From Mesorhizobium loti R88b (GTDB lineage: Bacteria; Pseudomonadota; Alphaproteobacteria; Rhizobiales; Rhizobiaceae): a stretch of 64,000 nucleotides of DNA. How positions within the stretch are numbered: the first letter of the stretch is position 1; the number at the start of each line of letters is the position of its first letter. The position numbers and the translations under genes were made by a program. Positions 3,103 through 39,659 of the stretch are shown here, piece by piece. The DNA is taken from the NCBI RefSeq assembly GCF_013170845.1, contig NZ_CP033367.1, positions 2,233,001 through 2,297,000 on the forward strand. Direction: 5' to 3'. The notes beneath the pieces are model-generated. The model made no database searches. It worked only from the letters and a program-made list of their open reading frames with translations, and had not been told where the DNA came from.

Positions 3103-4806
3103 ATGACTCTCTACGGATGGATACAGATCCTCGCCTACTGCGTGGTCGTCGTTCTGCTGGTGAAGCCGCTCGGCGGCTATATGTACCGCGTTTTCAACGG
3201 CGATCGCACATTTCTCTCGCCAATCCTTGGGCCCGTCGAACGGGCCCTTTATCGCATTTCGGGAACCAGCGAGCGCGAGGAACAGCACTGGACCGCCTAT
3301 GCGGCAGGCATCATGTTCTTCAGCCTGGCCAGCTTCCTGGCGCTCTATACCTTGCAGCGCCTGCAGGGCGTCCTGCCCTACAATCCGGCCGGCATGCCCG
3401 CCGTTGAGCAGAACCTCGCCTTCAACACCGCCGTCAGCTTCGTGACCAACACCAACTGGCAGAACTATGGCGGCGAAAGCACGATGTCCTACCTCGTGCA
3501 GATGGCCGGTCTGACCGTGCAGAATTTCATGTCCGCAGCGGTCGGCGTCGCCATCGCGGTGGCGCTGATCCGCGGCTTCGCCCGGCATTCGGTCAAGTCG
3601 ATCGGCAATTTCTGGGTCGATATCACCCGCTGCACACTCTACATCGTGTTGCCGCTCTCCATCGTGCTCACGCTTGTCTATGTCTGGCTCGGCATGCCGC
3701 AGACGCTCGGCCCCTATGTCGACGCCACCACGCTCGAAGGCGCCAAGCAGACCATCGCTCTCGGCCCGGTCGCTTCGCAGGTCGCCATCAAGATGCTGGG
3801 CACCAATGGCGGCGGCTTCTTCAACGCCAATGCCGCGCATCCTTTCGAAAACCCCGACGCGATCTCCAACTTCATCCAGATGGTCACGATCTTCGCGCTC
3901 GGTGCTTCGCTGACCAACGTCTTCGGTCGCATGGTCGGCAACCAGCGCCAGGGCTGGGCGATCCTGGCCTCGATGGGCGTGCTGTTCATCGCCGGCGTCG
4001 CCATCTGTTACTGGTCGGAAGCATCAGGCAATCCGCTTGTCCACGCGCTCGGCATCGACGGCGGCAACATGGAAGGCAAGGAGACCCGCTTCGGCATCTC
4101 GCTCTCGGCATTGTTCGCGGTCATCACCACGGCTGCGTCGTGCGGCGCTGTCAACGCGATGCATGACTCGTTCACCGCGCTGGGCGGCCTGATCCCGATG
4201 GTCAACATGCAGCTTGGCGAAGTCATCGTCGGCGGCGTTGGCGCCGGCTTCTACGGCATCATCATGTTCATCGTCGTTGCCGTCTTTGTCGCCGGCCTGA
4301 TGGTTGGCCGCACGCCCGAATATCTCGGCAAGAAGATCGAGGCCAAGGAGGTCAAGATGGCGATGCTCGCCATCCTCTGCCTGCCGCTGGCGATGCTGAT
4401 CTTCACAGCGATCGCGGTCGTGCTGCCAAGCGCCGTGGCCTCGATGGCCAATGGCGGTCCGCACGGCTTCTCCGAAGTTCTCTATGCCTACACTTCGGCG
4501 GCGGCGAACAACGGCTCGGCCTTTGGTGGTCTTTCCGGCAACACGCCCTGGTACAACATCACGCTCGGTATCACCATGTGGATGGGTCGCTTCTTCGTTA
4601 TCATTCCAGCGCTTGCCATCGCCGGCTCGCTGGCGACGAAGAAGACGGTGCCTGCTTCCGCAGGTACCTTCCCGACCGATGGTCCGCTGTTCGTCGGCCT
4701 GCTGGTCGGCGTCATCCTGATCGTCGTCGGCCTGACCTTCTTCCCGGCGCTGGCGATCGGACCGATCGTCGAACACCTGGCCATGATCCATGGGCAGACC
4801 TTCTGA
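3103..4806 (+). CDS. kdpA: potassium-transporting ATPase subunit KdpA
   Basis: A 567-residue, ten-helix inner-membrane protein, the K+-binding and translocating subunit of the KdpFABC pump. It belongs to the SKT superfamily with four pseudo-repeats, each carrying a selectivity-filter loop. These are visible as [35 protein letters not shown] (near residue 230), [14 protein letters not shown] and [13 protein letters not shown]. Length matches the family. It is followed directly by a small membrane protein gene and kdpB. Transcription is expected to respond to KdpDE under K+ limitation. Confidence 0.98.
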
Positions 4807-4813
4807 TACCGCC

Positions 4814-5029
4814 ATGTCCTGGTTCAAAAACATGCGACGCAACGTTGAGCATCGGACCGACCGGGAGGGGGAGACAATCCCCCCTCCTTTCCCGACCGTA
4901 TCCACCTTCCTCGGCATTGCGGCAGTCATGATCGTGATCTGGCTGCTGGTCTATGGGCCGCCGCATCTTCCTTCGGCATCCGATCGATCGGTGCCTGCCA
5001 ACATTTCAGATACTGGAGCCAACAAATGA
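4814..5029 (+). CDS. small membrane protein inserted between kdpA and kdpB
   Basis: A 71-residue protein starting [20 protein letters not shown] basic N-terminal segment is followed by a Pro-rich turn, one hydrophobic helix ([19 protein letters not shown]) and a short polar tail. Positive-inside bias places the N-terminus in the cytoplasm. It starts eight bases after kdpA, and its TGA overlaps the kdpB ATG (ATGA), so it is translationally coupled to kdpB. An in-frame ATG at 4790 overlaps kdpA and is less likely. It is not one of the classical Kdp subunits; a role in assembly or regulation is inference. Confidence 0.7.
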
Positions 5030-29241: not shown

Positions 29242-30483
29242 ATGACAGAGATGAATCTCGGCATGACCGAGCGGCTGAAGCCGATCCACGCCCGCGTCGC
29301 GGCCATGGTGCGCGACGAGATCATGCCGCTCGACCATGAGTTCCTGAGCGAAGTCGGCAAGGCAGGCGACCGCTGGATCTACAGCGCGCGCCAGAGCGAA
29401 ATCCTCGAAGGGCTGAAGAAGACCGCAAGGGAGCGCGGCCTGTGGAATTTCTGGCTGACCGGCTCGGAACGCGGCTACGGCCTGTCCACAGTCGAATATG
29501 CCTATCTCGCCGAGGAAATGGGCAAGGCGCATCTCGGCGCCGAAACCTTCAACTGCTCGGCGCCCGACACCGGCAATATGGAGGTGCTGGAGCGCTATGG
29601 CTCGGACGAGCACAAGAAAACGTGGCTTGAACCGCTTCTGGACGGAAGAATCCGCTCGGCCTATCTGATGACCGAGCCGGACGTCGCCTCGTCCGACGCC
29701 ACCAACATTGCGATGCGTTGCGAGCGCCAGGGCGACGACTATGTGCTCAATGGCGAGAAATGGTGGGCGTCCGGCGCCGGCGATCCGCGCTGCGCCATCT
29801 ACATCGTCATGGTGCGGACCGGCGGCGCGGAAGAAGCGCAGCACCGGCGGCACTCGATGATCCTGGTGCCGTCGGATGCAAAAGGCGTCACCAAGGTCCG
29901 GGCCATGCAGGTCTATGGCGATGACGACGCGCCGCATGGCCACATGCACCTTCGCTTCGACAATGTCCTGATACCCGCATCGAACCTGATCCTTGGCGAG
30001 GGCAAGGGGTTCGAGATCGCGCAAGGCCGGCTTGGTCCCGGTCGCATCCATCACTGCATGCGCGCCATCGGCCAGGCCGAGATGGCGCTGGAGTTGCTGT
30101 GCCAACGTTCGGTGCGCCGCGAAGCCTTCGGCAATAAGCTGGCAAAACTCGGCGCCAATTTCGACATCATCGCCGAATGCCGCATGGAGATCGAGATGGC
30201 TCGCCTGCTCTGCATCAAGGCGGCGTGGATGATCGACCAGGGCGATGCGCGCGCCGCTGCCCCTTGGATCAGCCAGATCAAGGTGATCGCGCCGCGCGTC
30301 GCGCTCAAGGTCACAGACGAGGCCGTGCAGATGTTCGGCGCGCAAGGCATCAGCCAGGACACGCCGCTGGCGCGCTCGTGGACGCATCTGAGGACATTGC
30401 GTCTCGCCGACGGGCCAGACGCCGTGCACCGCCGGCAGGTGGCGCGGACGGAGCTGAAAAAATACACGCAGGAGAAGATCTGA
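29242..30483 (+). CDS. acyl-CoA dehydrogenase, ACAD10/11 type
   Basis: A 413-residue FAD flavoprotein. FAD and substrate blocks: SAYLMTEPDVASSDATNI, LNGEKWWASGAGDPRC and, diagnostic of the ACAD10/11 branch, GRLGPGRIHHCMRAIGQAEMALEL and RLADGPDAVHRRQVAR. In this branch the enzyme can remove phosphate from a 4-phosphoacyl-CoA made by a kinase domain rather than simply oxidise. Here the kinase is a separate protein encoded on the opposite strand at 26749-27783. It precedes a zinc-type dehydrogenase. Confidence 0.93.
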   Translation: MTEMNLGMTERLKPIHARVAAMVRDEIMPLDHEFLSEVGKAGDRWIYSARQSEILEGLKKTARERGLWNFWLTGSERGYGLSTVEYAYLAEEMGKAHLGAETFNCSAPDTGNMEVLERYGSDEHKKTWLEPLLDGRIRSAYLMTEPDVASSDATNIAMRCERQGDDYVLNGEKWWASGAGDPRCAIYIVMVRTGGAEEAQHRRHSMILVPSDAKGVTKVRAMQVYGDDDAPHGHMHLRFDNVLIPASNLILGEGKGFEIAQGRLGPGRIHHCMRAIGQAEMALELLCQRSVRREAFGNKLAKLGANFDIIAECRMEIEMARLLCIKAAWMIDQGDARAAAPWISQIKVIAPRVALKVTDEAVQMFGAQGISQDTPLARSWTHLRTLRLADGPDAVHRRQVARTELKKYTQEKI

Positions 30484-30538
30484 GCCGCAGATCGGGCTGC
30501 GGCCGCGGTTTTCCGCTGACAACCAAGGAGTGTCACCC

Positions 30539-31576
30539 ATGACGATCCCCTCCGAAATGAAAGCGCTGCTGCTTGTCGGCGACGGCTATACCAGAACGCC
30601 GAGCGGCAGCGCGCTGGAAGCGATGGAGCCTTATCTGGGGCCGGGCAGCATCGCGGTGCCGGCGCCCGGACCGAGCCAGGTGCTGATCAAGGTCAGCCTC
30701 GCTTCGATCAATCCGTCCGATGTCGCCTTCATCAAGGGCCAGTATGGCCAGCCACGCGCCAAGGGCCGGCCGGCCGGCTTCGAGGGGGTCGGCACCGTCG
30801 TCGCCAGCGGCGACGAGCCCTATCCCAAAAGCCTCGTCGGCAAGCGCGTCGCCTTTGCCACCGGCGTCACCAACTGGGGTTCATGGGCCGACTATGCCGT
30901 TGCCGAGGCGGCGGCCTGCATACCGCTGCTTGACACGGTGCGCGACGAGGATGGCGCGGCGATGATCGTCAATCCGCTCACCGCGATCGCCATGTTCGAT
31001 ATCGTCAAACAGGAGGGCGAAAAGGCCTTCGTCATGACCGCCGGCGCCAGCCAGCTCTGCAAGCTGATCATCGGCCTGGCCAAGGAAGAGGGCTTTCGAC
31101 CAATCGTCACCGTGCGCCGCGATGAGCAGATCGGGCTTCTGAAAGAGATCGGCGCTGCCCATGTGCTCAACGAGAAAGCGCCGGATTTCGAGGCCACGCT
31201 GCGCGAGGTGATGAAGGCCGAACAGCCGCGCATCTTCCTCGATGCGGTCACCGGGCCGCTGGCCTCGGCCATCTTCCATGCGATGCCGAAACGGGCGCGC
31301 TGGATCATCTATGGCCGGCTCGACACGGACGCCACCATCATCCGCGAACCCGGCCAGCTGATCTTCCAGCACAAGCATATCGAGGGTTTCTGGCTGAGCG
31401 AATGGATGCGGCAGTCTAGAGATCGGCGCGGTCCGGCGATCATGGAAGCGCAAAAGCGTTTCTCCGACGGGCGCTGGTCGACCGATGTGACGGCGATCGT
31501 GCCGCTCGCCGAGGCGATCGCGCGGGTGCCGGCGGAACTGGCCAAGCCCAACGGCAAGGTGTTCATCAAACCCTAA
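30539..31576 (+). CDS. zinc-binding/quinone-oxidoreductase-like dehydrogenase
   Basis: A 345-residue MDR-superfamily protein. It has a GroES-like N-terminal part (VLIKVSLASINPSDVAFIKGQYG, GFEGVGTVVASG) and a Rossmann domain (KAFVMTAGASQLCKLIIGLA). The zinc-ligand cysteines and histidine of alcohol dehydrogenases are not apparent, so it is nearer quinone or enoyl reductases that use NADPH. AAGGAG before the ATG at 30539 decides the start. It is co-transcribed with the acyl-CoA dehydrogenase and probably reduces an unsaturated intermediate. Confidence 0.85.
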   Translation: MTIPSEMKALLLVGDGYTRTPSGSALEAMEPYLGPGSIAVPAPGPSQVLIKVSLASINPSDVAFIKGQYGQPRAKGRPAGFEGVGTVVASGDEPYPKSLVGKRVAFATGVTNWGSWADYAVAEAAACIPLLDTVRDEDGAAMIVNPLTAIAMFDIVKQEGEKAFVMTAGASQLCKLIIGLAKEEGFRPIVTVRRDEQIGLLKEIGAAHVLNEKAPDFEATLREVMKAEQPRIFLDAVTGPLASAIFHAMPKRARWIIYGRLDTDATIIREPGQLIFQHKHIEGFWLSEWMRQSRDRRGPAIMEAQKRFSDGRWSTDVTAIVPLAEAIARVPAELAKPNGKVFIKP

Positions 31577-31757: not shown

Positions 31758-32957
31758 ATGTTGTGGGGTGTCTTGATGACGATGTCCAAGCCGGTTTTCG
31801 ACCGTTTGGGACTTGGCCTTTGGATCGCAGCGTTCCTGGTCGTTCTGGTGCTTGTCCTGCTGGCACCCGACACACGCACCGTGCTGCTGGCTTACAGATA
31901 CGGAAGCCAGGAATTCCTGGCAGGCCAGCCGCTCTACAATATCCGATCCGAGATGGGGTATCTCTACGCGCCGGCCTTTGCCGCGCTTTATGTTCCGATA
32001 CTCAAGCTGGGGCCGCAACTGGGCGGCCTGGTCTGGCATGCGATTGGCTTCGCGGTGCTGACCTTTGCCGCGATGCGGCAGGTGCGTAAGCTCGGCGGCG
32101 GCGAATTGCCCTGGCTGCTTTCCTTCGGTCTCTTTCTTGCCTTGCCGATGGCGGCAGGCGCGATCCGCAACGGCCAGGCGACGATCCTCCTGACTGGCGC
32201 CTGCTGGCTTCTCACTTTGTCGGGGCTCGAAGGACGGCGCGCCGAGACCTTCTTCTGGGCCTCGGTTGCCATCATTGCCAAGCCGACCGCGATCATCATG
32301 CTGCTGTTGGTCGGAGCCCTGCGTTTCCGGCTGATACCGGTGCTCGTGCTGGCGGTGCTGTTCGTGATCGCTCTGCCCTATGCTTTCGCTCCGGCCGGCT
32401 ACCTGAATGACCAGTATCGCGTTTTCGCCGGGATGCTGACCTCGATGGCTGTCGACAACACCAACCATTTTGTCCCTACCGACTTCACGGCGCCCTTTAC
32501 CAGAATGGGGCTGCCCATTCCGGAATTCGGGGCCACGATCGTGCGCATCGTCATGGCCCTGTTCACGCTTTCCATGGTCCTCCGGTTCGACCGCAAGCTC
32601 GAACGTGGGACGGCCGGGCTCGCCATCTTCCTGACGGCGACGTTCTACATGTGCGTCTTCAACCCGCGCGTCGAGCCCAACACCTATGCCATGATCGCCG
32701 TGCCCGCCGGTCTCGCTATTGCCTTGTTGTGGCGCGAGGAACGAGGCGGCGTTCTGGCCTCGGTGCTGTCCGTGATGCTGTTTTTGACCGGATTGACGGG
32801 CGTCGAGCGCCATATCCAGGATTTGACATACCCCTGGTTCCGGCCGGTCGCGGTCACCATTATCGCCGGTTTCCTGATCTGGTGGTTCTGGGCCAGGCCG
32901 AGAGACAAGATGGCGAGAGACAAGGTGATGAATGAAAGGCCCGTCGCAAATGGCTGA
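31758..32957 (+). CDS. GT87-like (DUF2029) polytopic glycosyltransferase
   Basis: A 399-residue protein with about ten transmembrane helices. It begins in a short cytosolic leader and has a large loop after helix 1 with GQPLYNIR-SEMGYLYAPAFA, typical of DUF2029/GT87 enzymes of the GT-C fold. These use polyprenyl-phosphate sugars on the outer face of the membrane to glycosylate lipids; the catalytic acidic residue is usually in the first loop. ATG at 31758 or 31776 are possible. The next gene starts within its last 26 bases, so the four genes form one operon. Confidence 0.82.
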   Translation: MLWGVLMTMSKPVFDRLGLGLWIAAFLVVLVLVLLAPDTRTVLLAYRYGSQEFLAGQPLYNIRSEMGYLYAPAFAALYVPILKLGPQLGGLVWHAIGFAVLTFAAMRQVRKLGGGELPWLLSFGLFLALPMAAGAIRNGQATILLTGACWLLTLSGLEGRRAETFFWASVAIIAKPTAIIMLLLVGALRFRLIPVLVLAVLFVIALPYAFAPAGYLNDQYRVFAGMLTSMAVDNTNHFVPTDFTAPFTRMGLPIPEFGATIVRIVMALFTLSMVLRFDRKLERGTAGLAIFLTATFYMCVFNPRVEPNTYAMIAVPAGLAIALLWREERGGVLASVLSVMLFLTGLTGVERHIQDLTYPWFRPVAVTIIAGFLIWWFWARPRDKMARDKVMNERPVANG

Positions 32958-33933
32958 GTCGCGACCTGTTCTCGACATCGTGGCGCCGTTCTTCAACGAG
33001 GCGCAATCGGCTTCGGCTTTTGCCGCATTGCTCGACAAGCTCGAGGCTGCGGTGGCGCAGCGTTTCGGCATGGAAGTCCACAAGATCCTGGTCGATGATG
33101 GCAGTCGCGACGATGGCGCCGAGCGGTTTTCCCAGGCGCTGTCGGGTTCTTGGGAAATCGTGCGGCTCAGCCGCAATTTCGGCAAGGAGGTCGCGGTACT
33201 CGCCGGCCTCGACCAGTCGCGCGGCGACATGGCGTTGATCATGGACGCCGACCTGCAGCATTCGATGGACACCAGCCTGAAGATGATCGCCGAGCTGGTG
33301 GAACACCCGGACATCGATGTCGTCTACGCGCAGAACGACCGCCGCGAGGCCAGTTGGCGGCGCAGCCAGCTGGCGCGGCTTTTCTACAGTCTGATCAACA
33401 GCAGCCAGCGTTTCGACATTCCCGAGAACGCGGGCGATTTTCGCGTCATGCGGGGTGCCGTGGTGCGCGCGCTGACCAGCCTGCGCGATAAGCGGCGCTT
33501 CAACAAGGGTCTGTTCGCCTGGGCCGGCTTTCGCCAGAAGGCGATACAATATTCGCCGGAAAACCGTGTCACCGGCACGTCGAAATGGAGCCGGCTCAAC
33601 CTGATCGCCTTCTCGCTGGAGGGTTTTACCTCCTTCTCCGTCATCCCGCTGCGCATCATCAGCCTGAGCGGAATGCTGGCGGCGCTGGCGGGCCTCGTTT
33701 ATGGAGCCAAAGTGTTCTTCGAGGTGATGTTCTACGGCATCGCCGTCCCCGGCTATCCCAGCCTTATGGTCGCCGTCGTCCTGCTTGGCGGCCTCAACCT
33801 TACCTTGCTCGGCCTGATCGGCGAATATGTCTGGGTCACGCTCTCGGAGAGTAAGGAAAGGCCGGTCTATATCGTGCGCGATGTCTTGCGCGGCAACATT
33901 TCGGACAGGCCACCGGGCATACCCGGCGCATGA
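32932..33933 (+). CDS. GT2 polyprenyl-phosphate sugar transferase
   Basis: A 333-residue protein with a GT-A domain (DIVAPFFNEAQSA, VDDGSRDDG, LSRNFGKEVAVLAGLDQSRGD, MDADLQH; about residues 10-240), followed by two C-terminal transmembrane helices. This is the GtrB/dolichol-phosphate-mannose-synthase-like family, which makes undecaprenyl-phosphate sugars on the cytosolic face. The start at 32932 overlaps the previous gene; ATG at 32950 is the alternative. It ends in an ATGA overlap with the deacetylase. Confidence 0.92.
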   Translation: MKGPSQMAESRPVLDIVAPFFNEAQSASAFAALLDKLEAAVAQRFGMEVHKILVDDGSRDDGAERFSQALSGSWEIVRLSRNFGKEVAVLAGLDQSRGDMALIMDADLQHSMDTSLKMIAELVEHPDIDVVYAQNDRREASWRRSQLARLFYSLINSSQRFDIPENAGDFRVMRGAVVRALTSLRDKRRFNKGLFAWAGFRQKAIQYSPENRVTGTSKWSRLNLIAFSLEGFTSFSVIPLRIISLSGMLAALAGLVYGAKVFFEVMFYGIAVPGYPSLMVAVVLLGGLNLTLLGLIGEYVWVTLSESKERPVYIVRDVLRGNISDRPPGIPGA

Positions 33934-34748
33934 CGCGGCGCATCCGCCTCATCGCCGATGATTACGGCCTCGCGCCCGGCGTCTCCGCCGCGATCCTGGA
34001 TCTGCTCGGTCGCGGACGTCTGACCGGCACCAGCTGCATGACGGGCTTTCCGGAATGGGCTGACGAGGCGAAGCGCATCAAGCCGTTGTGCGGCCGCGCC
34101 GCGATCGGGCTGCATCTTACCTTGACTGACCAGCCGGCCCTCACCGGCCGGTCGAGCCTGGCGCCGGAAGGCCGGCTGCCGCCGCTGCGTTCGCTGGCAC
34201 TGCCGGTCCTGCGCGGTCAGATCGAGGCTCGCGATGTCGATGCCGAGCTCGACGCTCAGTATGGCCGCTTCATCGAGGCGCTGGATCGCCCGCCCGTCTT
34301 CGTTGACGGGCACCAACATGTGCATTTCCTGCCCGTCGTGCGCAATTGGCTGCTCGCGCGTTTTACGGACGCTGCCAGCAGGCCGGCGCTGCGTGGTGCT
34401 CCGTCGCTTGGCAATGCCGTCGTGGCGCCGAAAGTCGCGGCAATCGCTGCCGTGGCCGCCGGTTTCAACCGGTCGATGGCAAGTGCCGGCTTCTCCCTTT
34501 TCGCGCCGCTTGCCGGTATCTATGACTGGCGGCAACCCGAACGGTTCGCACCGGTTCTGCAAGCCGCGGTCGAAGCGCTGCCCGAACGGGGCCTGTTCAT
34601 GTGCCATCCCGGCCATGTCGACGAGACGCTGCGGTCGCGCGACCCGATGCAAGGCGTGCGCGAGGTGGAATTCGCGGTCCTGGCCTCGGACGCGTTCGGC
34701 GCGAGCCTCGCCCGTGCCGGTGTCGAGATCATGGGCGGCCAGGAATGA
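33930..34748 (+). CDS. YdjC/ChbG-family carbohydrate deacetylase (NaxD-like)
   Basis: A 272-residue protein starting MTRRIRLIADDYGLAPGVSA. ADDYG is the metal-binding and catalytic opening of the ChbG/HpnK/YdjC family; GLHLTLTDQPAL and DGHQHVHFLP supply the other His and Asp residues, and MCHPGHVDE the final His. These enzymes remove N-acetyl groups from sugars. Sitting between a GtrB-like transferase and GtrA points to deacetylation of a lipid-linked N-acetylhexosamine, as NaxD does in Francisella. No transmembrane helix is needed. Confidence 0.9.
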   Translation: MTRRIRLIADDYGLAPGVSAAILDLLGRGRLTGTSCMTGFPEWADEAKRIKPLCGRAAIGLHLTLTDQPALTGRSSLAPEGRLPPLRSLALPVLRGQIEARDVDAELDAQYGRFIEALDRPPVFVDGHQHVHFLPVVRNWLLARFTDAASRPALRGAPSLGNAVVAPKVAAIAAVAAGFNRSMASAGFSLFAPLAGIYDWRQPERFAPVLQAAVEALPERGLFMCHPGHVDETLRSRDPMQGVREVEFAVLASDAFGASLARAGVEIMGGQE

Positions 34749-35149
34749 GCGGCGAGCCCAAGCGTTCGACCGGCAGCAAGATCGTGCGCTTTGCCATGGT
34801 CGGGCTGGTGAACACGGCCATCGACCTTGCCGGCTTTTTCCTGCTGCTCAAGCTGCATGTCCCGCCACTGCCGGCCAACATCGTCTCCTGGTCGATCGCC
34901 GTCATCTTCTCTTTCGTGGCCAATGGCTTCTGGTCGTTCGAGCGCAATCGAGCCATCCCGCTGCGAGACGCCTTCCTGCGCTTCGTCTCGCTTGGGGCGC
35001 TGATTTCGCTCAGCGTCTCCACCCTGTCGATCGCGCTGTTCGCCGGCATCGCCGGCGTGTGGCCGGCAAAGATCGGTGGCGTCGTGGTGGCGGCGGCGTT
35101 GAATTTCGTCGCCGCGCGCTGGTCGATCGAAGGCCGGCTGCTGAAGTAG
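34745..35149 (+). CDS. GtrA family membrane protein
   Basis: A 134-residue protein with four transmembrane helices, beginning MSGEPKRSTGSKIVRFAMVG. (L/I)VRF-x-(L/M)VG-x-(V/L)NTAIDL is the GtrA opening; ANIVSWSIAVIFSFVANGFWSF is the second family block. GtrA-type proteins are thought to flip polyprenyl-phosphate sugars across the inner membrane. The ATGA overlap with the deacetylase gene makes it the last member of the four-gene operon. Confidence 0.93.
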   Translation: MSGEPKRSTGSKIVRFAMVGLVNTAIDLAGFFLLLKLHVPPLPANIVSWSIAVIFSFVANGFWSFERNRAIPLRDAFLRFVSLGALISLSVSTLSIALFAGIAGVWPAKIGGVVVAAALNFVAARWSIEGRLLK

Positions 35150-35169: not shown

Positions 35170-38100
35170 CTACTCTGCCGGTTCCACGTTGGTGTAGGCG
35201 GCTTCCTCCAGCTCGCGCTTCAGGCGTGCTTCCTCATGCGTCTTCGGCGTGACGAAGCGGCCGAGCAGGAGATAGGCGACCGGGGTCAGGAACAGTGTCG
35301 AGATGGTGGCCAGGCCCAGCCCGCCGACGATCACCCAGCCGAGCGCCACGCGTGCCTCGGCGCCGGCGCCGGCGGCCAGCACCAATGGCAGGCCGCCAAG
35401 CACGGTGCAGATCATCGTCATCATCACCGGCCGCACGCGGATGATCGAGGCTTGCTCGATCGCCTCGCGCACATCAAGCCCGCGATCGCGCAGCTGGTTG
35501 GCGAATTCGACGATCAGGATGCCGTTCTTGGCCATGACGCCGACCAGCAGCACCAGGCCGATCTGGCTGTAGGCGTTGAGGCTGGTGCCGCTCAGAAGCA
35601 GTGCGAAGATGGCGCAGGCGAGCCCGAGTGGCACTGTCGCCATGATAATGACGGCGCTGACGAAGCTTTCGAACTGGGCGGCCAGCACCAAAAGGATGAT
35701 GACCAGAGCGAAGCCGAAGATGGTGACCATCGCGCTGTTGGTTTCGCCCAGCGTCGCGGCCTCGGCCAGGGGCAGGATGCGGCTGCCCGGCGGCAGCAGC
35801 GGCGTGGCGATTTGCTCGGCTTGGTTCAGTGCATCGCCAAGCGCGAAATTGCCTGAGAGGTTGGAGGTGATGGCCACCGATGGCTGCTGCTGTTCACGCG
35901 ACAGCGATGGCGGCACGGCGCGTTCGGTCAGCGAGGCAATGGTCGACATCGGCACAAAGCGACCATCGGCTGTCTTGAGGAAGACGTTTTCCAGATCGGT
36001 CGGATCGTTGATCGGGTTGGTGGTCGAGACCAGCTTCACGCCATAGCTGCGGTCGGCGATGTAGACATCGACGACGTCATTGCCGTCGAGCATGGCCTGC
36101 ATGGTGTTGGCGAGCCCCGTAATATCGATGCCGAGGTCGGAGGCGCGCTCGCGGTCGATGGCGACGGCCAGTTGCGGTTGCGTTGGGTCGATCGACAGGC
36201 GCGGTGTTTGGAAGCGCGGGTCCTTCTGCATCTCGGCGATGATCTTCACCGCCGCGTCGCCAAGCGCCTTGCGGTCGTTGCCGACGAGCGCAAACTGCAG
36301 GCCGTTGCCGGCGCCGCGGATACCGAGGCTGTTGGGCTGCACCGGGAAGATGCGCACGCTCGGCACCTGCTTGGTCAGCTGGCTGATCTCGGCCATGATC
36401 TCCTGCTGGCTGCGGCTGCGCTCGTTCCAAGGTGCGAGGGTCATCACCATGAATCCGGAGTTATAGGAGCCGTTCTGGCCGGCATTCTCGAAGGTTGAGC
36501 GGATCTCGCCGGAATCGCGCATCGGCTGGATCAGTTTCTCGATCTTCTGCATCTGCTGCGTCGTGTAGTCGAGACTGACGCCTTGCGGGGCGCTGATGCG
36601 CAACAGCACGGCCGCGCGGTCCTCGGTCGGCGTCAGTTCCTGGCGGATGGTGCCGAACAGCGCGAAGGCGGTGCCGGCAAACAGCACCGCGACCAGAACC
36701 ACGATCCAGGGCGCATCGAGGCAAGCGTGCAGGGCTCGCTTGTAGGCGGCATTCAGCGCGCCGCCGATACGGGCGCCGATGCCGTGGCCGCCTTCATGGT
36801 GAAGCGAGGCGCTGGTCAGCATGCGGGAGGCGAGCATCGGGCAAAGTGTGAGCGCCACCACGCAGGACAGCAGCACCGACATGGCAAGCACGAAGCCGAA
36901 TTCGCGAAACAGGCCGCCGGTCTGGCCGGGCAGGAACGAGATCGGCACGAAGACGGCGACCAGCGTCAGCGTCGTGGCAATGACGGCGAAGAACACTTCC
37001 TGCGCGCCAAGGACGGCGGCCGCACGCGGCCCCATGCCTTCATTGCGTCGTCGCACGATGTTTTCCAGCACCACGATGGCGTCATCGACGACGAGGCCCG
37101 TGGCCAGCACCAGGGCAAGCAAGGTGAGAATGTTGACGGAGAAGCCGGCCAGATAGATGGCGGCGATGGTGCCGATCATGGCGACCGGCATCGACAGGCC
37201 CGGAATGAGTGTCGCGCGCCAGTCGAGCAGGAAGACATAGATGACGATCAGCACCATGGTCACCGACAGGCCGAGTGCGATCTCGACCTCGTGCACGGCG
37301 CCCTTGACGAAGACGGCGTCGTCGCTGGTGATCTTGATCGCCATGCCCTTGGGCAGGTTCTCCTGCAGTTTGGCGACAGCGGCCTGGACGCCGGTCGAGA
37401 TGTCCAGCGTGTTGGATTCCGCCTGACGGATGATGCCGATGCCGATGCCGGTCTTGCCATCCGAGCGCAGCGTCGTCTGGCCGACATCGGGGCCGAGCGT
37501 GACGGTGGCGACATCGCGGATGCGCGTCGTGCCGCCGATGATGATGTTTTCGAATTCCTCGGGTGTCGTCACGTCGGCCGTCGTGCGGACGATCAGGTCC
37601 TGGTTGGTGGTGGTGATCGAACCCGCCGGCGAATCGAAGGCGACGGAAGCAAGGGCTGCTCTCAGGTCGGCCACCGTGAAGCCAAGGCTGGCGAGCTTGT
37701 TTTGGTCGACATCGATGCGGAAGATCTTGTCACGGTCGCCATAGACCTGGACATCGGCAACGCCGGGCACGGCGGCCAGTTCATCCTCGATCTGGTCCTG
37801 GACCACGACCGTCATGTCCTGGATCGACATGTTTTCGGAGGTCACCGCCAGCCGCATCACCGCGTCGGAATTGGCATCGGCCTTGACGATGCGCGGCGGA
37901 TCGGCGGTGTCCGGCATCTGGTTGGCGACGCGGCCGACGGCATCGCGCACGTCGGAGGCGGCGACGTTGAGATCGACGCCATCATTGAATTCGATGGTGA
38001 CGCGGCTCGAGCCGAAGGAGGAGGAGGACGAGATCGACTTGACGCCGGAGACGCGGGCGACCGCGCCTTCGATCGTGTCGGTCAGTTCGCGGTCGACGGT

Positions 38101-38301
38101 TTCGGCCGCCGCGCCTTCGAAAGTGGTCGAGACCGTGACCACGGCACGGTCGACGTCAGGCAGTTCACGGATCTCGACGCCGTAGAAGGCGGCGAGGCCG
38201 GCAACCGCGATGAGGACGTTGAGCACGAAGGCCATGACTGGCCTGTGGATGAAGAGCGCGGTGAAGCCGGTATCGCTGGCGGGGTTGACAGGTCCGGTCA
38301 T
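35170..38301 (-). CDS. RND efflux pump inner-membrane permease
   Basis: A 1043-residue AcrB/MexB-type RND pump. The N-terminal helix is followed by a large periplasmic domain, then helices 2-6, a second periplasmic domain and helices 8-12. The proton-relay helix contains VVDDAIVVLENIVRR; GLVLLVGVMAKNGILIVEFANQ is the equivalent C-terminal block. It exports drugs or other amphipathic compounds with the adaptor encoded before it. The start at 38301 makes an ATGA overlap with the adaptor's stop. The outer-membrane partner is not encoded nearby. Confidence 0.95.
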   Translation of the reverse strand: MTGPVNPASDTGFTALFIHRPVMAFVLNVLIAVAGLAAFYGVEIRELPDVDRAVVTVSTTFEGAAAETVDRELTDTIEGAVARVSGVKSISSSSSFGSSRVTIEFNDGVDLNVAASDVRDAVGRVANQMPDTADPPRIVKADANSDAVMRLAVTSENMSIQDMTVVVQDQIEDELAAVPGVADVQVYGDRDKIFRIDVDQNKLASLGFTVADLRAALASVAFDSPAGSITTTNQDLIVRTTADVTTPEEFENIIIGGTTRIRDVATVTLGPDVGQTTLRSDGKTGIGIGIIRQAESNTLDISTGVQAAVAKLQENLPKGMAIKITSDDAVFVKGAVHEVEIALGLSVTMVLIVIYVFLLDWRATLIPGLSMPVAMIGTIAAIYLAGFSVNILTLLALVLATGLVVDDAIVVLENIVRRRNEGMGPRAAAVLGAQEVFFAVIATTLTLVAVFVPISFLPGQTGGLFREFGFVLAMSVLLSCVVALTLCPMLASRMLTSASLHHEGGHGIGARIGGALNAAYKRALHACLDAPWIVVLVAVLFAGTAFALFGTIRQELTPTEDRAAVLLRISAPQGVSLDYTTQQMQKIEKLIQPMRDSGEIRSTFENAGQNGSYNSGFMVMTLAPWNERSRSQQEIMAEISQLTKQVPSVRIFPVQPNSLGIRGAGNGLQFALVGNDRKALGDAAVKIIAEMQKDPRFQTPRLSIDPTQPQLAVAIDRERASDLGIDITGLANTMQAMLDGNDVVDVYIADRSYGVKLVSTTNPINDPTDLENVFLKTADGRFVPMSTIASLTERAVPPSLSREQQQPSVAITSNLSGNFALGDALNQAEQIATPLLPPGSRILPLAEAATLGETNSAMVTIFGFALVIILLVLAAQFESFVSAVIIMATVPLGLACAIFALLLSGTSLNAYSQIGLVLLVGVMAKNGILIVEFANQLRDRGLDVREAIEQASIIRVRPVMMTMICTVLGGLPLVLAAGAGAEARVALGWVIVGGLGLATISTLFLTPVAYLLLGRFVTPKTHEEARLKRELEEAAYTNVEPAE

Positions 38302-39458
38302 GAGCCTTCGGCGGTGTTGGGGGCGCGCTGGTCCTGGCCGGCGATGCGGACCTCGCCGCCTTCGCTGACACTCTGCGTGCCTTCGGTGACCACCATGTCG
38401 CCATTGTCGATCTCGGCGTCGATCAGCACGGTCTCGGTGTTGCGCTGGATGATGCGCACCTGCACGCGCTTGGCCTTGCCGTCCTCGATTTGCCAGACAT
38501 AGGCGCCGTCCGAGCCCCACAGGATCGCCAGCGGGCTGACGGAAGGATAGGTTTCGCCGGGGAATTTCATGGTGATGGAGAACGACATGCCGGCGCGCAG
38601 TGAATCGGCTGGGTTGGCGATCTTGGCCTTTACCAGGAGCGTGCGGCTCTTCTCGTCGATGTGGTTGTCGATGGCGGATACCGTGCCGGTATAGGCGTTG
38701 CTCGGATTGGCGATCGGCGTCGCCGTCAGTTGCGCACCCACCTTGATGGCGGCGGCAAAGCGCTCCGGCACCTGGAAATCGACCAGGATCGAGGAGCGGT
38801 CATCAAGCGTGGCGATCGCCGACTGGTTTGTCACGTAATTGCCGGCTGAGATCGGCAGGATGCCGACGGTGCCTGCGATCGGCGCCAGAATGGAGCGGCG
38901 CTGCAGCGCAAGCTCGGCATCCTGAAGCGCCAGCTTGGCGCCTGCCAGCACGACTTCCGCGTCGGCAACGGCGACAGGCGTCGCGGCGTTGGAGGCGCGC
39001 AGCGACTTGACGCGATCGAGTTTGGATTGCGCATCCTGCAAAGCGAGCTTGGCCCGGTCCTGAGAGATGATCTCGGTCTCGGAATCGAGCGTGGCGATGA
39101 TCTGTCCCTTGTCGACATGCGTACCGGATTCGACCAGCAGCTCGGCAAGGCGGCCGGAGCTGTAGGGATTGACGGTCACCGAGGCGTTGGCGCGGCCGGT
39201 GCCGATCGCCTGCAAGCGGTCGTTGATAACAGCGGACGCGACTGGCGATGCAACGATGGTGGCTATCTGGGTGCCGTTGCGCCCAGCCTGCCTGGAGCCT
39301 CCAGCCGCCGTTTCTTTCGTTGGAGGCGTCGCGCCATAGGCCCAGTCGATCCCCCAGCGCGCCAGCACTTGCGGAGCGCCGGGGTAGAAGCGAGCCCACG
39401 CGGCCGCGGCGGCGACCACGACGACAAGCGCAAGGACAATCTGTTTCCAACCCGACAT
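38298..39458 (-). CDS. RND efflux periplasmic adaptor (MFP)
   Basis: A 386-residue membrane-fusion protein with an N-terminal signal anchor (GWKQIVLALVVVVAAAAAW). Then comes a biotinyl-lipoyl-like half-motif (GRLAELLVESGTHVDKGQIIATLD), a helical hairpin (about residues 125-180), the second lipoyl half (ILAPIAGTVGILPIS) and beta-barrel and membrane-proximal domains. It links the RND pump to an outer-membrane channel. GGAG lies seven bases before the ATG at 39458; the longer frame is not supported. Confidence 0.94.
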   Translation of the reverse strand: MSGWKQIVLALVVVVAAAAAWARFYPGAPQVLARWGIDWAYGATPPTKETAAGGSRQAGRNGTQIATIVASPVASAVINDRLQAIGTGRANASVTVNPYSSGRLAELLVESGTHVDKGQIIATLDSETEIISQDRAKLALQDAQSKLDRVKSLRASNAATPVAVADAEVVLAGAKLALQDAELALQRRSILAPIAGTVGILPISAGNYVTNQSAIATLDDRSSILVDFQVPERFAAAIKVGAQLTATPIANPSNAYTGTVSAIDNHIDEKSRTLLVKAKIANPADSLRAGMSFSITMKFPGETYPSVSPLAILWGSDGAYVWQIEDGKAKRVQVRIIQRNTETVLIDAEIDNGDMVVTEGTQSVSEGGEVRIAGQDQRAPNTAEGS

Positions 39459-39659
39459 CGATACTCCAGCAGCAAGAATCGTCTGCCGGTTCCAAGTGGA
39501 AGCGGATGCAGCGACGACAAGGGCTGGCGGCACAAACCGGCCACCACAGCCCCGATATCACCGGTTTATGGCAATTATCACGCAATCGTGCACATTAAAT
39601 CTCGGTAACGTGATCGCGAAGTGATCTTGGGGCGACCGTGGAAAACTTTGCGGAGTTGC

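Follow-up and report, generated by a model that had tools for sequence, protein, structure and literature searches.

How four overlapping genes of Mesorhizobium loti R88b might place an amino sugar on the cell envelope, and on which molecule, is the question raised by this locus. It lies in a stretch of 64,000 nucleotides, hereafter the window. The four genes were found at the positions and on the strand given by the initial annotation, and all four Pfam assignments exceed their cut-offs:

31758..32957, + strand: GT87 (DUF2029) polytopic GT-C protein of 399 aa, putative last-step glycosyltransferase (Pfam GT87)
32932..33933, + strand: GtrB/ArnC-like GT2, putative polyprenyl-phosphate HexNAc synthase (Pfam GT2, PDB; alternative start 32950)
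33930..34748, + strand: predicted YdjC/ChbG-family deacetylase of 272 aa (Pfam YdjC; model without visible signal peptide)
34745..35149, + strand: GtrA-family small membrane protein of 134 aa, putative flippase of a lipid-linked sugar (Pfam)

We consider it likely that together they encode a periplasmic glycosylation system of the three-component type, with a deacetylase built in. They had been read as one pathway, with lipid A as a candidate acceptor. The pathway logic stood, given a constant GT2-YdjC core, a GT-C partner nearly throughout, an intact YdjC site and a PimE-like GT87; lipid A as acceptor found no support.

Layout and conservation of the module

The genes overlap by 26 (GT87/GT2), 4 (GT2/YdjC) and 4 bases (YdjC/GtrA), as the annotated range of 4 to 26 bases had it. 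With the ATG at 32950 as GT2 start, the first overlap shrinks to 8 bases. In the GtrA frame the longest ORF opens at GTG 34601, and the ATG at 34745 agrees with relatives. Among these relatives, with starts picked by a script near the expected one, a 4-base overlap is seen at the GT2/YdjC junction in 79 of 91 pairs; for YdjC/GtrA the figure is 73 of 74.

Relatives' loci were located with YdjC peptides; of 101 obtained, the best 80 were retained, which biases all tallies to close relatives; L001 and L082, which are the window itself, were excluded from the counts. The survey of gene order proposed as a check shows the four-gene arrangement preserved in 62 of these best 80 loci, with GT87 identity as low as 52%. 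GT2 adjoins YdjC in all 80, and GtrA was found in every one of the 62 GT87-type loci. Pairwise dN/dS of the four genes against nine loci ranges from 0.07 to 0.37, well below 1: all four are under purifying selection. The kept order and the low dN/dS take the module beyond chance. YdjC was found as a single copy in the 7.2 Mb single-contig genome, and of 146 genomes from the genus, 82 carry a module-type YdjC, at a threshold of at least 65% identity that excludes four extra matches at 25-27%. This provides a defined four-gene target in nitrogen-fixing symbionts for a predicted cationic decoration of the envelope, surface charge being a factor in how such bacteria withstand plant antimicrobial peptides.

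Donor synthesis and deacetylation

GT2 (Pfam Glycos_transf_2, 78.3 bits, 8.3e-22, above cut-off) has GtrB sll0501 (1.6e-60) and ArnC (1.3e-26) as its nearest PDB entries, and by this resemblance would be the GtrB-like polyprenyl-phosphate sugar synthase of Gtr-type systems. GtrA (GtrA_DPMS_TM, 69.1 bits, 4.9e-19, above cut-off) is the putative small flippase, and a transferase of predicted GT-C fold, GT87, sits in the same cluster. The YdjC protein (155.9 bits, 2.3e-45, above cut-off) has a predicted model with a pLDDT of 92.5, without signal peptide, matching PDB 2i5i and ChbG 7vi8. Its residues D10, D11, H62, H128, H132 and H226, which we take to have metal and catalytic roles, are invariant in 19 of 19 proteins, so that the YdjC fold comes with an intact candidate site.

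We infer the enzymatic steps, the sugar, the membrane side and the flipping as follows. GT2 would load HexNAc onto polyprenyl phosphate at the cytoplasmic face, UDP-GlcNAc being the likeliest donor. At the same face YdjC, devoid of an export signal, would strip the acetyl group. GtrA would then carry the polyprenyl-P-hexosamine across the membrane and GT87 would pass the amino sugar, with its positive charge, to an acceptor in the envelope.

That YdjC acts on soluble chito-oligosaccharides or amino sugars, the cluster then not being one pathway, is in our judgement highly improbable. Among solved structures and NCBIfam models the closest are of ChbG type, chitin disaccharide deacetylase ranking first in NCBIfam. 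However, NCBIfam scores are far under their cut-offs (81.5 bits against 227 for that model), and YdjC is coupled to a GtrB-like GT2 throughout the 80 loci, in most cases by a 4-base overlap, which argues against it. The YdjC structures listed include none described as a lipid-linked-sugar enzyme, so that a closer relative of such kind could not show. NaxD, another YdjC protein, is reported in the available part of PMC11279074 to deacetylate undecaprenyl-P-GalNAc. Of the linkage expected of a NaxD type, GT2 is present in all of the best 80 of 101 loci and an ArnT-like PMT_2 in 16; the window itself has GT87. A hopanoid route was discarded: the HpnK model gives YdjC no more than 47.3 bits, with a cut-off of 232.6, and the two scanned neighbours are not hopanoid genes.

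Several known systems resemble the module. In Francisella, FlmF2 and FlmK serve the lipid A galactosamine route. FlmF2/NaxD/FlmK likewise combines an UndP-HexNAc synthase, a YdjC-family deacetylase working, by the accessible description, on a lipid-linked sugar, and a GT-C transferase, whereas our module ends with GT87 in place of an ArnT/PMT_2-like enzyme, includes GtrA in its operon and is not known to alter lipid A. The Bordetella Lgm system (lipid A glucosamine) also puts an amino sugar onto an envelope molecule, LgmB being called a glycosyltransferase in the text available; the module uses GT87. GtrA/GtrB/Gtr O-antigen glucosylation, in the excerpts at hand, shares the GtrB-like synthase and GtrA flippase and has a serotype-specific GT-C. 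The module differs in its added deacetylase, its GT87 as GT-C and its chromosomal location, widespread in one genus. Finally, Pseudomonas GpgSDF is also a glycosyltransferase-deacetylase-flippase operon making a cationic amino-sugar lipid but, according to the portion of its description available, it uses GT4, COG3233 and UPF0104 proteins and sets the sugar directly on a phospholipid without GT-C. On account of these differing protein families a glucosaminyl-phosphatidylglycerol operon type was rejected. A search of titles and abstracts found no GT87 partner of a YdjC system, which does not prove absence.

Two GT-C families and a missing acid

A GT-C protein, either GT87 or an ArnT-like PMT_2, lies near the GT2-YdjC core in 78 of the best 80 of 101 loci; in the other two (L071 and L077) GT2 and YdjC are present and no GT-C was found. 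Both partner families belong to the GT-C class using polyprenyl-P-sugars. A scan of ten proteins classed those of L062, L071, L080 and one of L064 as not GT-C; the PMT_2 of L062 and L080 were detected later by profile. Among the 16 PMT_2 loci of the best 80, PMT_2 lies on the strand opposite to GT2 in 10, and no GtrA was found in eight. That GT87 stands in here for an ArnT-type enzyme, as had been suggested, is borne out: the exchange falls on one branch of a tree built with 24 of the 62 GT87-type loci, a tree that does not tell which way it went.

Class-wide, 40 of 43 places besides the window's were analysed. A GtrB-like GT2 occurs near 12 of 16 YdjC resembling that of the window versus two of 24 dissimilar ones (p 2e-5, at a similarity cut set after the scores were seen). 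It shares the YdjC strand in one of the 12 regions (L216). Partial scanning of these 12 revealed PMT or PMT_2 in L195, L206 and L216, with L199 under the cut-off, and the GT87 profile matched none of the 40.

GT87 scores 39.7 bits with Pfam (cut-off 25) and its predicted model matches PimE, suggesting a PimE-like GT-C fold. Neither the profile of A3 nor the single GT87 sequence had a match among PDB sequences, and hhalign of the GT87 clade against 10 other GT87 proteins gives a probability of only 0.8%, not significant. PimE, a GT87 mannosyltransferase, needs Asp58, D58A and D58N being inactive, and K195, Q163 and Y62 are also essential. No mannose pathway is known for the module. Two sites of its GT87 are relevant here:

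31881..31883, + strand: codon of Val42, which one of three alignments pairs with the catalytic Asp of other GT87 proteins
32661..32675, + strand: motif N-P-R-V-E of the GT87 clade (residues 302-306), with Glu306 as a possible substitute base

At the site matching PimE Asp58 in MAFFT L-INS-i, all 63 clade members have Val (Val42 here) and all 17 other GT87 rows Asp, although three of these rows (L119, L120 and L129) come from uncertain ORF picks. MAFFT default and hhalign set this Asp against a gap. Because the alignments disagree on the pairing, our claim is limited to the absence of the acid. The first periplasmic loop of the clade (proteins of 340 aa or less omitted) contains no counterpart of the PimE Asp and no invariant acid; among 42 proteins the share with an acidic residue stays at or below 56% at each of the positions 36 to 71. 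In a narrower set, 53 of 63 members have an acid in column 51, where the window protein has Gln; judging from this column, part of the clade may have a shifted acid. The initial annotation had overlooked the missing Asp.

Since the acid essential in PimE is absent from this clade, it is not safe to assume transfer by GT87. GT87 may rely on a different acid (Glu306 or Asp242) in place of the usual Asp, or else its acceptor may need no base, as for a phosphate or a carboxylate. N302, P303, R304 and E306 are invariant in 42 of 42 proteins, and other GT87 rows carry a different motif there. The same set keeps D242 as well as K175, Q140 and Y46, which resemble K195, Q163 and Y62 of PimE (paired by eye). 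Alternatively, GT87 would be a GT-C pseudoenzyme or adaptor, transfer being ensured by another GT-C of the genome, which holds three PMT_2 and one further GT87. The loop without invariant acid would agree with this, as would the presence among the top model matches of a GPI-transamidase chain, PIG-U, presumably non-catalytic. Yet K175, Q140 and Y46, the candidates for a donor site, are fully conserved along with D242 and E306, relatives carry an ArnT-like enzyme in the place of GT87, and its gene is under purifying selection, so we regard an adaptor as distinctly unlikely. One donor-making core with two GT-C families amounts to a natural experiment. PMT_2 partners keep D-x-x-E in 16 of 16, versus a GT87 clade without such an acid, and the need for this acid in GT-C enzymes thereby becomes directly testable.

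The envelope acceptor

The nearest described systems, Francisella NaxD/FlmK and Bordetella Lgm, put hexosamine on lipid A, in Bordetella on its phosphates, as far as their accessible accounts tell. The same route to lipid A, on a phosphate or a sugar, could be envisaged here: Mesorhizobium lipid A bears a phosphate at position 4', which in M. loti is methylated in part according to the text available, and a phosphate acceptor, needing no catalytic base, would fit the missing Asp of GT87. Against this, the M. huakuii type strain NBRC 15243 (L014), presumably the same strain as IFO 15243, carries an intact module. The part of the literature available describes the lipid A of IFO 15243 as a disaccharide of GlcN3N carrying GalA and phosphate, without mention of hexosamine decorating it; PMC4103559, in its accessible portion, gives the strain as IFO1254. 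A phosphate-linked sugar could escape detection if acid hydrolysis removes it or if the cells make it only in certain conditions. Because of this carrier strain we reject lipid A as the settled acceptor, and hold it to be rather unlikely.

Another envelope molecule, whether a membrane lipid, LPS core or O-chain, exopolysaccharide or protein, has in our view about an even chance. From the available descriptions, classical three-component systems modify O-chains, glucosaminyl-phosphatidylglycerol is a precedent for amino sugars on phospholipids and lipid A appears bare in M. huakuii. On the other side, the operon of this precedent differs from the module in its protein families, and the two scanned upstream proteins indicate no particular acceptor.

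Tentatively, and with more doubt than belief, we propose that an ancestor of the Mesorhizobium clade swapped PMT_2 for a GT87 without the GT-C acid, which would now be a base-free or re-based (Glu306) enzyme placing a cationic amino sugar on its envelope acceptor. The acceptor of such an enzyme would already be a nucleophile, phosphate or carboxylate, unless Glu306 serves. If this holds, these symbionts would carry a decoration of the envelope that chemical analysis has yet to reveal.

The upstream pair, the only neighbours scanned, encodes by protein scan an acyl-CoA dehydrogenase and a quinone oxidoreductase (QOR). Although they lie upstream in 58 of the 62 GT87-type loci (best 80 of 101), their spacing or absence varies and they were rejected as pathway members. 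L021 showed no QOR, and in L010, L012, L019, L026 and L028 the distance between QOR and GT87 exceeds 600 bases, for which reasons we treat both genes as mere neighbours.

Module organization and its GT-C partner

The genes under study occupy one interval of the window:

31758-35149, + strand: four-gene module encoding GT87, GT2, YdjC and GtrA proteins in this order, each above its Pfam cut-off

They overlap successively by 26 (or 8), 4 and 4 bases (GT87/GT2, GT2/YdjC and YdjC/GtrA), and their dN/dS values against nine loci are 0.07 to 0.37. Upstream and co-directional are genes for an acyl-CoA dehydrogenase and a zinc-type quinone oxidoreductase (29242-31576), found likewise in 58 of the 62 GT87-type loci described below. 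Convergent with the module, a long ORF similar to RND efflux pumps and an adjoining membrane-fusion-like ORF were recognized by eye (35170-39533, - strand).

Genome contigs were scanned with the YdjC protein and the best 80 of 101 loci were retained, most from relatives named Mesorhizobium. In all 80, GT2 lies immediately 5′ of YdjC on the same strand. In a profile search of these best 80 of 101 loci, the GT-C partner, the putative last-step transferase, was GT87 with GtrA in 62 and the ArnT-like PMT_2 in 16, accompanied by GtrA in 8 of these but not in the other 8; for L071 and L077 no partner was found. PMT_2 and GT2 are on opposite strands in 10 of the 16 PMT_2 loci. Ten flanking proteins taken across nine GT87-less loci were compared with Pfam, which detected PMT_2 in six of these loci (L064, L067, L069, L073, L074 and L075). 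Around the Agrobacterium and Rhizobium GT2-YdjC pairs L071 and L077, the profile search detected neither GT-C nor GtrA in about 10 kb. Among the same best 80, the records with a GT87 partner all bear the name Mesorhizobium except for one Oryzicola (L060) and two that give no genus (L017, L043).

A tree of 47 YdjC proteins, where 24 of the 62 GT87-type loci are represented, separates the GT87-associated proteins, which make up one side of a branch supported at 100/96, from the PMT_2-associated ones, which fall outside. By this topology, the transferase was exchanged a single time in this sample, the donor-making GT2-YdjC core being retained. We infer that PMT_2 came first and GT87 second, the deep forks of the tree being unresolved. 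Within the genus, 82 of 146 genomes encode a module-type YdjC; at the family level, a relative at E 0.001 or less exists in 20 of 121 genomes, and one of at least 40% identity in 11.

The catalytic acid of GT87

According to the excerpted account of the GT87 mannosyltransferase PimE, Asp58 at the tip of the first juxtamembrane helix is essential, D58A and D58N being inactive, and Y62, K195, Q163 and W319 are likewise required (PMC12041525). Residue 42 of the module's GT87 clade is Val in 63/63 proteins, and in 41/42 of a wider set overlapping these 63. In one alignment, other GT87 rows carry Asp in the Val42 column (17/17, with three doubtful picks), whereas in two further alignments their Asp stands opposite a gap. 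In the wider set of 42, acidic residues make up at most 56% of rows at any position between 36 and 71; position 51 is acidic in 53/63 clade rows, and is Gln in the window GT87. Y46, Q140 and K175 are retained in the clade, which also displays invariant residues of its own (D242, R304 and E306). The PMT_2 partners keep D-x-x-E (16/16) ahead of an H-P-P motif, in what is assumed to be the same loop.

G125, another genome of the genus with a full module (L140), also encodes two stand-alone GT87 of the same Asp-less clade, L138:3404-4669 and L139 ~3827-4990 (46% and 42% identical to the module's), around which neither GT2, YdjC nor GtrA was found within the 9 kb fetched. The Asp-less feature therefore extends beyond the operon. 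This leaves three readings of the Asp-less clade: the base lies elsewhere in the protein, the acceptor does not need one, or these GT87 proteins have no catalytic role.

Relation to known systems and the acceptor

In its predicted mechanism the module parallels NaxD/FlmK and Lgm as well as the Gtr three-component systems. What makes it a new variant is that its GT-C belongs to GT87, that GtrA is part of the operon, and that this GT87 is devoid of a defining residue. The amino-sugar chemistry proposed in the initial annotation is plausible and its support now stronger; this does not extend to lipid A, which had been named as a possible acceptor.

M. huakuii NBRC 15243 (L014) carries all four module genes intact, and we take it to be the strain formerly numbered IFO 15243. 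In the excerpted descriptions, M. huakuii IFO 15243 and M. loti MAFF 303099 have a lipid A built on a GlcN3N disaccharide that bears GalA and a 4′-phosphate, partly methylated in M. loti, and hexosamine decoration is not mentioned (PMC4103559, PMC5644692). The M. loti work, as excerpted, had at first an unidentified amino sugar, the backbone then being assigned to GlcN3N by NMR. As far as these excerpts go, a carrier strain whose lipid A is described without hexosamine decoration speaks against lipid A as constitutive acceptor; an acid-labile or conditional decoration is still conceivable.

YdjC across the class and a second GT2-GtrA pair

Across the class, 38 of 240 genomes encode a PF04794 protein. 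From 43 places outside the window's genome, 40 regions, some of them short, were fetched, and 16 of the 40 YdjC genes score at least 170 bits against the profile of the module's YdjC family, a cut chosen after the scores were seen. A GtrB-like GT2 (>100 bits) is found in the region of 12 of these 16, versus 2 of the 24 others, so the module's YdjC subfamily tends to accompany polyprenyl-phosphate sugar synthases. Of these GT2 genes in the 12 regions, just one shares its strand with YdjC; PMT-type proteins were detected in 4 of the 12 regions (one below cut-off), and the GT87 profile matched none of the 40. In two GT2-YdjC regions, a MurJ-family flippase gene directly adjoins GT2 (L198:3623-5173, L211:3323-4858).

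The window genome, a single 7.2 Mb contig in which no second YdjC was found, also encodes one further GT87, three PMT_2 and two further GtrA proteins. It harbors a second GT2-GtrA pair (L146:2978-6029, contig ~7127477-7130528), whose GT2 is 32% identical to the module's, followed by a 496-aa protein without Pfam match and adjacent to a histidine kinase gene; the pair and this protein are perhaps another three-component system.
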